A program made the position numbers and the translations under genes. The notes below the pieces were generated by a model. It saw nothing but the letters and a program-made list of their open reading frames with translations, was not told where the DNA came from and did not search any database. From Secundilactobacillus angelensis (lineage in GTDB: Bacteria; Bacillota; Bacilli; Lactobacillales; Lactobacillaceae), in NCBI RefSeq assembly GCF_012641075.1, contig NZ_JAAXLJ010000012.1:1-64000 (forward strand): 64,000 nucleotides of DNA. The letters are read 5' to 3'. Below, in pieces: positions 4,206 to 7,153 of this stretch (positions are counted from its first letter, which is position 1; each line of letters begins with the position of its first letter).

Positions 4206-4433
4206 GGCAAACTTTTGTTAATAAATGATTATTCTAAAAATATATATTGTTTTTATAATAGAGAGAATTTTTTGATTAAAATATGGCACGATTCGTGTTA
4301 CTATATAAGTTAGGTAAAGGTCTAAGTTTTTATGTATATTGTTTCACAAATGGTCTCTAGCGTTCACTAACACGACTTACTTTTACTTGCTCAATGAATC
4401 CTGTCGAGACCGTTAGAAAGGGTGAATAAACAG

Positions 4434-5060
4434 ATGAAAAAGTTTGTGGCACTTGTCGGTACTAATACCGTAAAATCTACTAACCGTAAGTTACTTCAAT
4501 ATATGAAAAAGCGGTATGCAGATGACGCCGAGATTGAAGTTGTTGAACTGAAGGGCTTACCAATTTTTAAAAAAACTAAGGAAGTCTTTATTCCACAACA
4601 AGCACGAGACATTGCTGAAAAAATCGATGCTGCTGATGGTGTTATTATTGGCACACCAGAATATGATCATTCGATTCCAGCTTTGTTATCCAGCGCACTT
4701 GCTTGGTTGTCTTATGGCATCCATCCGCTGATGGATAAGCCCGTGATGATTGTTGGTACCTCTTATGGCACTCTTGGTGCTTCTCGAGCACAAGCTCAGT
4801 TGCGTCAAATCCTGGATTCTCCAGAATTAAAGGCCACTGTTTTACCAAGTTCCGAATTTCTGTTGGGGCATTCTTTGCAAGCCTTTGATGAAAATGGTGA
4901 TTTGAAGTCAGCTACTGAATCACAAAAACTAGATGGTTTGTTTGATGACTTCCTGGAATTTATCGATTTAACCGAACAACTTGATAATTCGAAGAAGCTA
5001 CACGAGCAACAAGCTGCCAGCTTTACTTGGGACAATGGTACAACGGGAGATGATGAATAA
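4434..5060 (+). CDS. NAD(P)H-dependent FMN reductase, HcrA-like
   Basis: Flavodoxin-fold protein of 208 residues of the FMN_red family. Characteristic segments are GTPEYDHSIPALLSSALAWLS (about 75-95) and the flavin-binding loop GTSYGTLGASRAQ. It should reduce FMN or a bound acceptor with NAD(P)H in the cytoplasm. The start ATG 4434 is preferred over GTG 4422 because AAAGGGTGA then lies at normal distance. The gene abuts the next reductase (TAATGG junction), so the two are one unit. In Lactiplantibacillus plantarum a similar small reductase (HcrA) is paired with a larger flavoprotein to reduce hydroxycinnamic acids; the pairing here resembles that, but the function is inferred only. Confidence 0.75.
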   Translation: MKKFVALVGTNTVKSTNRKLLQYMKKRYADDAEIEVVELKGLPIFKKTKEVFIPQQARDIAEKIDAADGVIIGTPEYDHSIPALLSSALAWLSYGIHPLMDKPVMIVGTSYGTLGASRAQAQLRQILDSPELKATVLPSSEFLLGHSLQAFDENGDLKSATESQKLDGLFDDFLEFIDLTEQLDNSKKLHEQQAASFTWDNGTTGDDE

Positions 5061-6532
5061 TGGTTAAATTAGTTGGAATTGCCGGCTCAATCGGTGAACA
5101 ATCATATAATCGGATGCTATTGGAATTTATTCGTGATCACTTTAAAAAAACGGTAGACGTTGAGATTTTAGATATCAACGATGTGCCCGTCTTTAACGAA
5201 GATGAAGATCACAATGATAACCCAGTCGTTCATGAATTGGCACGCAAGATTGCGGGAGCCAATGGTGTTATTTTAGCAACCCCAGAACATAATCATACGG
5301 TTCCGGCCGCAATGAAAAACGTGATCGAATGGTTATCTAACAATGTTCACCCCTTAGACGGTAAAGCAGTTTGGATCGTCGGTGCTTCTTATCATACTCA
5401 AGGTTCTTCACGTGCCCAGTTGCATTTAAAGCAAATCTTGGAATCACCAGGTGTGAACGCCTACGTTATGCCTGGCAACGAGTTTTTGCTGAGTAACGCC
5501 AAAGAAGCTTTTGCTGCTGATGGAAGTCTTAAAGACGCCAGAACAGTTGGCTTCCTTGAAATAGTTATGAAGAAGTTCTTAACGTTTATGAAGGTGATTG
5601 AAATGTTGGATGCACCAGATCCAAAGAGTGCTCACGAAGAAGATATGGATTCAAAGCATCCGGTAAATACTACCGTTCCAGATGTTGATATGACAGATCC
5701 CGAGTGGGTTGAAAAGGCTGCTGAAAAGATGCACGCAGCTAGTGGTGGCGATTACGTTAAACTGGATCGTGGTCTGTTAACCGTCGATCAGTTGAACTAC
5801 TTCTTGAACTCGATGGCGGGTGAGTTAACGTTTGCTGACGATAATAACCAGTTTATTTACTACAACAAGACCGCTGATGCTGCCCACATGCTTGCGCCAC
5901 GAACTCCTGATCAAGTTGGTGATCCACTAAGTGCTGTGCATCCTGATCGTGTTATCGAGCACGTTAAGCAAGTGCTGTATGCACTGCGGACAGGCGAGAG
6001 TGACGTGGTTTCCATGCCAGCTCAAACCGGCCCCAACCAACATGTGATGCATTACTACCGGGCAATGCGTGATGAAAACCGTCGTTACCGTGGTGTGAAT
6101 GAATTGGTGATTGATATTATGCCAATCCTGAAGTACTATCTGGCAGCAACTGGTCAAAAATTAGTCAAGGATCCTGATGCCGTACCAATGTCTCCAATCA
6201 CTGGCCTTGACGCGGTTACCGGTGCTTCTGCTCATTCTGACCCAACCAAGACGGATGCAACTAGTGGTGCTTCAGGATCTAAATCAGTTGAGAAACCAGC
6301 TGAAAAGCCAGCTACGGATGCTACTAGTGGTGCTTCTGAGTCAGGTAATGAAGCAACGGTGGCGCCTGCAGCAGCAGAACCGATTGACACAGATGCTTTA
6401 ACCGGTGCTTCTGAAGAACCTGCAACGGGTTATTCCGCAACAGAGGATGACGCTCCTGCAAAACAACCAGCGCCAACACCAGAACCAGAATCAACAGATA
6501 CTGATGCAACAACTGGAGCTTCAGAAAGCTAA
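5060..6532 (+). CDS. FMN reductase-PAS fusion with a repeated flavinylation-motif tail
   Basis: Protein of 490 residues in three parts. Residues 1-190 are an FMN_red flavodoxin-like domain (ATPEHNHTVPAAMKN; GASYHTQGSSRAQ). Residues about 235-360 resemble the PAS domain found at the end of DUF438 proteins (GELTFADDNNQFIYYNK, APRTPDQVGDPL, the IDIMPI end). The last 110 residues are low complexity and rich in Ala, Thr, Ser, Pro and Glu, with five copies of DAxxGAS starting at residues 384, 399, 420, 445 and 482. This matches the D-x-x-[ST]-[GA]-A-[ST] signature to which ApbE attaches FMN covalently. There is no signal peptide, so it should be cytoplasmic. It is co-transcribed with the small reductase upstream and ends at a terminator. 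A multi-FMN electron-carrying tail is an inference. Confidence 0.75.
   Translation: MVKLVGIAGSIGEQSYNRMLLEFIRDHFKKTVDVEILDINDVPVFNEDEDHNDNPVVHELARKIAGANGVILATPEHNHTVPAAMKNVIEWLSNNVHPLDGKAVWIVGASYHTQGSSRAQLHLKQILESPGVNAYVMPGNEFLLSNAKEAFAADGSLKDARTVGFLEIVMKKFLTFMKVIEMLDAPDPKSAHEEDMDSKHPVNTTVPDVDMTDPEWVEKAAEKMHAASGGDYVKLDRGLLTVDQLNYFLNSMAGELTFADDNNQFIYYNKTADAAHMLAPRTPDQVGDPLSAVHPDRVIEHVKQVLYALRTGESDVVSMPAQTGPNQHVMHYYRAMRDENRRYRGVNELVIDIMPILKYYLAATGQKLVKDPDAVPMSPITGLDAVTGASAHSDPTKTDATSGASGSKSVEKPAEKPATDATSGASESGNEATVAPAAAEPIDTDALTGASEEPATGYSATEDDAPAKQPAPTPEPESTDTDATTGASES
6209..6523 (+). repeat. Five degenerate DAxxGAS coding repeats in the protein tail
   Basis: The codons for DAVTGAS (6209-6229), DATSGAS (6254-6274), DATSGAS (6317-6337), DALTGAS (6392-6412) and DATTGAS (6503-6523) repeat at growing intervals (45, 63, 75 and 111 bases). 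Synonymous codons differ between copies and the linkers are unrelated, so the repeats look maintained at protein level and are not recent DNA duplications. Confidence 0.8.
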
Positions 6533-6560: not shown

Positions 6561-6606
6561 GTGCCGGCGTGACAGTCATTTTGACTGTTACGCCGGCTCT
6601 TTTAAG
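6561..6606 (+). terminator. Terminator of the flavin reductase unit
   Basis: A near-perfect stem of about 16 base pairs (arms beginning GCCGGCGTGACAG at 6563 and ending GTTACGCCGGC at 6597) with a short TTT loop, followed by TCTTTT. Confidence 0.85.
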
Positions 6607-6682: not shown

Positions 6683-7153
6683 ATGAGCAGTATTTATGAT
6701 TTTCAAGAGACAGAGATGAACGGTAAGCCAATCAATTTGGCCGATTATAGCGGTAAAGTTTTGATGATCGTTAATACCGCTAGCAAGTGCGGATTAGCGC
6801 CTCAACTAGAGGGAATCGAAAAGCTCTACAAACAATACCATGAACAGGGCTTTGAAGTGCTAGGTTTGCCTTCCAATCAATTTCATCAGGAACTGGATTC
6901 TAATGAAGAGACCGAAGCATATTGTCAAATGCACTACGGCGTGACGTTCCCAATGACTAAGCAAGTTCGTGTCAATGGCGATGATGAAGACCCCTTATTT
7001 ACGTACTTGAAAGATACGGCTGGCCATGGTCGAATCAAGTGGAACTTTACTAAGTTTCTAATTGGCCGCGACGGACAACTGATTGACCGTTACGCGCCAG
7101 TCACTAAACCAGAAAAAATTGAACCCGATATTGTTGAAGCATTAGCAAAATAA
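6683..7153 (+). CDS. Glutathione peroxidase family thiol peroxidase
   Basis: Cytoplasmic peroxidase of 156 residues, the normal bacterial length. The peroxidatic Cys36 lies in NTASKCG, followed by Gln66 in SNQF and Trp120-Asn121 in KWNF, giving the usual catalytic tetrad. Cys81 is placed where the resolving cysteine of thioredoxin-dependent members lies, so the reductant is probably thioredoxin and not glutathione. The start ATG 6683 follows AAAGGAGG. It is a single-gene unit between two terminators; a TATATT -10-like box lies about 40 bases upstream. It protects against hydrogen peroxide and organic peroxides. Confidence 0.88.
   Translation: MSSIYDFQETEMNGKPINLADYSGKVLMIVNTASKCGLAPQLEGIEKLYKQYHEQGFEVLGLPSNQFHQELDSNEETEAYCQMHYGVTFPMTKQVRVNGDDEDPLFTYLKDTAGHGRIKWNFTKFLIGRDGQLIDRYAPVTKPEKIEPDIVEALAK

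Follow-up and report, generated by a model that had tools for sequence, protein, structure and literature searches.

The analyses presented here suggest that the FRedB-PAS protein of Secundilactobacillus angelensis (490 aa, an ORF at 5060-6532 on the forward strand of the 64,000-nucleotide stretch of DNA analysed, hereafter the window) is very probably flavinylated in its own cell, on five ApbE-type motifs that are distributed along a disordered C-terminal tail. That this tail would in addition be a working multi-FMN electron arm we consider rather likely. The initial annotation of this DNA had proposed a cytoplasmic multi-FMN arm that takes electrons from the N-terminal FMN reductase, perhaps gated by the PAS domain, and as a whole this interpretation is partly supported by the evidence laid out below.

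The FRedA and FRedB-PAS gene pair

Directly before the FRedB-PAS gene, on the same forward strand, lies a FRedA-like partner gene (4422-5060) coding for a second flavin reductase of the FMN_red type (PF03358, E 8.3e-37; 212 aa as listed), whose start is more likely the ATG at 4434 than the listed 4422, judging by AGAAAGGG upstream of that ATG. The FRedB-PAS start codon shares one base with the FRedA stop (TAATG), and the chain that follows consists of an FMN_red domain at residues 3-148 (5066-5503, Pfam E 7.8e-37), whose close solved relatives include the FMN reductases 1rtt, 3svl and 3u7r, a PAS_10 domain at residues 245-353 (5792-6118, Pfam E 2.7e-26), which has a solved relative in the C-terminal domain of SMU_1151c (2qkp), and the tail at residues 378-490 (6191-6529), which makes up the last 113 residues. 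The five DAxxGAS copies that had been described are all at their reported residues and nucleotides on the forward strand, namely DAVTGAS at residue 384 (6209-6229), DATSGAS at 399 (6254-6274) and again at 420 (6317-6337), DALTGAS at 445 (6392-6412) and DATTGAS at 482 (6503-6523), with FMN predicted on Ser390, Ser405, Ser426, Ser451 and Ser488, the last of these two residues before the C-terminus. The description of the tail as disordered and free of any folded domain was likewise borne out: in an AlphaFold2 model from a 33-row alignment the body is mostly confident and residues 378-490 have no secondary structure (block pLDDT about 29-40), and Pfam gave no FMN_bind match in the 490-aa protein.

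Downstream of the two genes a terminator-like hairpin (6563-6597, forward strand; 16 pairs, 10 of them G-C) has by far the longest stem of the 4 terminator-like sites in the region (2.5 in shuffles), and a promoter scan of the region gave 5 sites, no excess over the 6.6 in shuffles. After the unit comes a glutathione-peroxidase-like gene (window 6683-7153), which is found 3' of the unit in 8 Secundilactobacillus loci, window included (at L038 with one small ORF between); this neighbour suits peroxide as a side product, or may be mere gene order in one genus.

By its domains and gene arrangement the window protein appears to match the fused form of the FRedA/FRedB-LjPAS set. In Lactobacillus johnsonii, FRedA and FRedB form a heterodimeric NADH-dependent flavin reductase that forms H2O2, and LjPAS is the product of a separate gene and was read as a regulator; in other species it forms one chain with the reductase, with a fusion reported in L. 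plantarum and Lp2732 and EF1227 named in the Figure 1 legend (accessible text of Valladares et al. 2015, PMC4500961). Similarly the window has an adjacent pair of FMN_red genes and a PAS_10 module, matched to that set by architecture, whereas the accessible sections of the same paper mention neither ApbE nor covalent flavin. The initial annotation had recognised the flavin reductase-PAS protein and omitted both its partner gene (4422-5060) and this FRedA/FRedB-LjPAS link. The FRedA cluster is present at 37/42 named loci, and an FMN_red ORF distinct from the PAS protein is found at 38/40 loci of other Lactobacillales.

It is already proven that ApbE flavinylates FMN_red proteins on an unstructured extension, at one or two sites: Huang et al. 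2024 (PMC11334425) describe such proteins from Lactococcus lactis and L. taiwanensis, which have apbE co-localised and bear one or two motifs on an unstructured extension at the C-terminus, and show flavinylation with alanine controls. The window protein similarly joins FMN_red to an unstructured C-terminal extension with motifs, but differs from that description, which in its accessible part mentions no PAS, in its five motifs, its PAS_10 domain and its FRedA partner gene. In the flavin-tag (Tong et al. 2021, as described in the accessible text of PMC12052999) a seven-residue linear motif can suffice for ApbE, best in a terminal position; that tag is engineered, whereas the window motifs are natural, repeated and conserved. 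With these two precedents, linear motifs in a flexible tail are a less unusual design than had been supposed.

Motif number and selection across homologues

We counted a strict motif, D..[ST][GA]A[ST], and a wider form, adopted only after variants had been seen, which also admits Ala in the fourth place and Ser in the fifth. The family sample comprised 102 distinct proteins, window included, each matching PAS strongly and taken from loci of 301 Lactobacillaceae genomes, and with L086 dropped (a broken gene with no definable tail) 101 tails were analysed. When the window tail was shuffled 100,000 times the mean was 0.04 strict motifs and the maximum 3, reached in one shuffle, and the 101 tails together contain 260 strict motifs, where 300 rounds of shuffling gave 1.5 on average and never more than 7, with none in the 32,667 residues of the folded parts of the family proteins. 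At least one strict motif occurs in 87/101 tails, at least two in 75/101 and at least three in 61/101, with a maximum of six; in the wider form at least one occurs in 100/101 (the exception being L165) and at least three in 80/101, with a maximum of seven, and tails with a single motif number 12/101 by the strict form and 2/101 by the wider. Spacing from motif to motif is mostly 13-26 residues, and in 99/100 proteins 1-5 residues separate the last wider-form motif from the C-terminus. At the DNA level the 2.6-Mb genome contains 29 matches to a degenerate version of the motif and 18 to a reversed control pattern, and 5/29 of the former fall within one 315-bp stretch of the tail.

Of the 14/101 tails without a strict motif, one is apparently frame-shifted (the G134 copy, L165) and the rest have the Ala or the Ser that the wider form allows. 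Tails with only the Ser-at-position-5 variants (DxxSSAS, DxxASAS) are seen in several genera, examples being L098, L119, L129, L134, L146, L149, L150, L153, L155, L173, L214, L218, L221, L226, L255 and L258, and these variants may reflect a different ApbE specificity in those genera. The Asp and the final Ser/Thr are conserved in the homologues, with loss in only a few (L260, and one copy in L217); in L260 (G498), where apbE is adjacent, the Asp is replaced in both motif copies (NAVSSAS, HAVSGAS). In the tails of L041, L044, L085 and L087 a stretch between motifs is conserved around IEI-LLNSG-N-ATEG-QP, in contrast to the drifting linkers elsewhere, and at G013/L052 the gene is interrupted, giving a broken copy.

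The five window copies differ from one another in their codons, as had been noted, and comparison between species gives stronger evidence for selection. When the differences in all 21 pairings of 7 Secundilactobacillus sequences are added up (the pairings are not independent), the nonsynonymous:synonymous ratio is 21:221 (0.10) at the motif D/[ST]/G/A/S positions, 487:333 (1.46) in the linkers and 764:3190 (0.24) in the folded body, some of the seven sequences lacking whole motifs (80 gapped cells). These ratios indicate that the motif codons are under purifying selection and that the linkers are not, and motifs that are held while linkers drift are what would be expected of sites recognised singly on a flexible chain. 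Chance or low complexity as the source of the motifs is ruled out by the shuffles, the folded-part counts and the codon comparison.

ApbE and its distribution with the PAS family

A single apbE is present in the window genome (G000:C1:76339-77175, 314 aa, E 1.6e-75), not adjacent to FRedB-PAS, and so a lack of the flavin transferase, which would have told against the initial annotation, is excluded. Its Pfam match begins near residue 9 and the FMN_red domain of FRedB-PAS begins at residue 3, which, judged from sequence, leaves no room for a signal peptide in either protein, and the ApbE in particular fits the cytoplasmic location originally proposed. The ApbE of E. coli is secreted.

The genome counts support the conclusion that the presence of apbE tracks this PAS protein family. 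Among Lactobacillaceae, where apbE was counted only at E < 1e-40 (20/301 genomes have weaker matches alone), it is found in 100/101 PAS-family genomes against 61/200 others, and the sole PAS-family genome without it, G264, is 76% complete. Outside Lactobacillaceae all PAS-positive genomes have apbE (85/85); since 222/246 order-level genomes do so, presence is a weak test and copy number was compared within families. At least two apbE occur in 51/85 PAS-positive against 21/122 PAS-negative genomes, the comparison leaving out the apbE-less G446, G470, G495 and G503 (none PAS-positive), and in a family-stratified permutation of copy number the observed total was reached in 0/20,000; in family f4 no such association of a second apbE with the PAS protein is seen. 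As the genomes are related, these co-occurrence counts overstate independence.

Within the fetched stretches apbE is found at 19/42 loci of named relatives, always on the same strand, at 20/72 Lactobacillaceae loci, and at 34/40 loci of other Lactobacillales (same strand in 33/34), the last sampled in 40 genomes out of the 85 that are PAS-positive, as stretches of 5.5-10.5 kb. Wider-form motifs are carried by 38/41 PAS proteins of these 40 loci; L250 and L270 have PAS matches without motifs and apparently belong to another PAS type. In an expression table for Streptococcus agalactiae, apbE and two FMN reductases have consecutive numbers and similar changes (-2.09, -2.11 and -2.12; accessible part of PMC6224512), which fits one operon.

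In the window genus 12/15 genomes match the PAS family (the copy of G013 being broken), and G001, G008 and G009 have no match. As a negative control we took 16 genomes with distant PAS_10 matches together with three further PAS proteins, 19 proteins in all, and found motifs in 16/19. The sole apbE-less genome of this control (G223, L189) also has no tail motif, which is only suggestive because L191 and L201 have no tail motifs though their genomes have apbE.

The proposed electron arm and its alternatives

In the mechanism that we propose, FRedA (4422-5060) and FRedB-PAS (5060-6532) would constitute a cytosolic NADH:flavin oxidoreductase, and cytosolic ApbE would place FMN through a phosphoester bond on the last Ser of every DxxT/SGAS motif, so that a flexible arm bearing as many as five FMNs would result. 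Hydride from NADH would pass by way of the FRedA/FRedB sites to the arm FMNs, which once reduced would swing out and hand electrons to soluble acceptors. FAD enzymes of the fumarate-reductase-like kind are the probable acceptors in some lineages, and oxygen would be a leak or an alternative acceptor that yields peroxide. The PAS domain would serve as the anchor of the arm, with a possible part in positioning or gating it. Lipoyl swinging arms, with their Ala/Pro-rich linkers and a covalent redox cofactor shuttled between active sites, are similar flexible arms, but they carry another cofactor on a folded lipoyl domain and have no homology to the window tail. Several FMNs in one chain, as predicted here, are also described for multi-flavinylated proteins with more than one FMN-binding domain, which are extracytosolic (Meheust 2021, PMC8238504), and for SaFMN3 and CbFMN4, with several covalent FMNs per chain (PMC10339131), and the accessible text of these sources proposes longer-range electron transfer for such proteins. 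The window protein differs from them in that it has no FMN_bind match, bare linear motifs and, from the lack of room for a signal peptide, a predicted cytosolic location.

Arms of this kind are found on other proteins. The window genome encodes a second PAS_10 protein (L186:8195-8725, minus strand; G000:C1 near 196194-196724) of 176 aa without a reductase domain, which ends in two motifs, DAISGAS and DATTGAS. Small PAS proteins also have arms, as does a second FMN_red-PAS group that is only distantly related, and in L067 (Aerococcaceae) the motifs lie between and after three PAS domains of one chain. In genus g37 there are ten stand-alone PAS proteins of 244-247 aa with three motifs each, which from their size and architecture are probably LjPAS, and three shorter PAS proteins with one, two and no motifs (the last being L165). 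Moreover, G001 and G009 have single-chain fusions of 1020 and 1022 aa (L182:4078-7140, L183:2636-5704) in the order FMN_red, PAS, tail motifs, FMN_bind, FAD_binding_2 reductase (Pfam run on the 1020-aa one), and these fusions point to electron delivery. In layout they resemble, by description, the hydroxycinnamate reductase HcrA/HcrB of L. plantarum, where a small FMN_red-type (COG0431) partner stands beside a larger COG0431-reductase fusion enzyme, although no PAS or multi-motif tail is described in the accessible part of that source (PMC10295242). The window genome has a separate 633-aa FMN_bind/FAD reductase like that of the fusion chain, and this protein and the 176-aa PAS_10 protein are its other possible ApbE substrates.

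With regard to acceptors, the gene order at L041 is fumarase, a 463-aa fumarate-reductase-like protein, a transporter-like protein, FRedA and FRedB-PAS, and L044 repeats this order, except that a regulator-like ORF precedes FRedA and the series closes with an apbE homologue of 283 aa. L146 and L150 also have homologues of fumarase and of fumarate reductase near the PAS gene, and in the window genome apbE shares one 16-kb stretch with a transporter, fumarase and a FAD-only reductase of 465 aa. The 465-aa fumarate-reductase-like type is found in 82/101 PAS genomes compared with 92/200 other Lactobacillaceae genomes and in none of the 40 other-Lactobacillales stretches. Since it is common without the PAS protein and is missing from those 40 stretches, fumarate reductase is weakened as a general acceptor and is kept for some lineages; in this species a fumarate-type acceptor is conceivable but somewhat doubtful.

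It is unlikely, though it deserves to be weighed, that the tail FMNs instead fold back into the FRedA/FRedB pockets as covalently secured cofactors or spares, with no carrier arm at all. Such tethering would agree with the model of Huang 2024 (PMC11334425), which places the L. lactis extension near the FMN pocket, with the FMN KD of 1.96 uM and the 0.58 FMN per dimer as purified reported for L. johnsonii FRedA/B (PMC4500961), and with the tails that have one motif (12/101 strict, 2/101 wider); however, the FRedA/FRedB heterodimer has two FMN pockets according to the accessible text of PMC4500961, whereas three or more motifs are present in 61/101 tails by the strict form and 80/101 by the wider, and the arm is also found on small PAS proteins without a reductase domain and among the three PAS domains of L067. 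Considerably less probable is a redox sensor or oxygen sink, in which the PAS domain and arm flavins would regulate FRedA/B or turn oxygen to peroxide with no delivery to metabolic reductases. LjPAS preincubated with FRedB did halve the initial FRedA/B rate, its gene responds to oxygen (in a direction stated both ways, between abstract and results) and the L. johnsonii pair makes H2O2 (PMC4500961), and in addition a protein with three FMNs reacts with oxygen once it is reduced (PMC10339131) and the glutathione-peroxidase-like gene stands 3' of the unit at 8 Secundilactobacillus loci, the window among them. The published LjPAS was, however, made in E. coli BL21 and the accessible text (PMC4500961) mentions no apbE co-expression, so that its arm flavins were probably absent, and the fusions to FMN_bind/FAD reductases again point to delivery. 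That the motifs are not flavinylated at all and are motif-like by composition or descent, in a low-complexity Ala/Thr/Ser tail that is indeed rich in A/S/D/T/P/E, is hardly credible against 260 motifs where 1.5 are expected at kept composition, a nonsynonymous:synonymous ratio of 0.10 in motifs as opposed to 1.46 in linkers, and the co-occurrence and adjacency of apbE with the PAS family.

The multi-FMN electron arm is accordingly the reading that we carry forward, and we would tentatively extend it, as a plausible proposal that stops somewhat short of probable: the PAS_10 proteins of Lactobacillales whose tails bear 1-7 FMNs may together be a class of swinging flavin arms in the cytosol, which dock on an NADH:flavin oxidoreductase and feed several soluble reductases. 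On this view LjPAS would be an electron carrier whose flavins were missing from the published work. What appears to be new is the number of up to six strict sites and their presence on PAS domains with or without a reductase, as well as the link of LjPAS and the peroxide-forming reductase to ApbE; a literature search for a link between LjPAS or PAS_10 and ApbE, with most subscription journals and all preprints outside its coverage, found no paper. If the proposal is true, covalent flavin in the cytosol would be a repeatable, domain-free electron arm whose number of cofactors depends on nothing more than how often a seven-residue motif is repeated. The proposal would also join the literatures on ApbE flavinylation and on the NADH-dependent H2O2-forming flavin reductase of lactobacilli, and help to explain the second apbE of many Lactobacillales. 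The PAS family occurs in food and fermentation genera.
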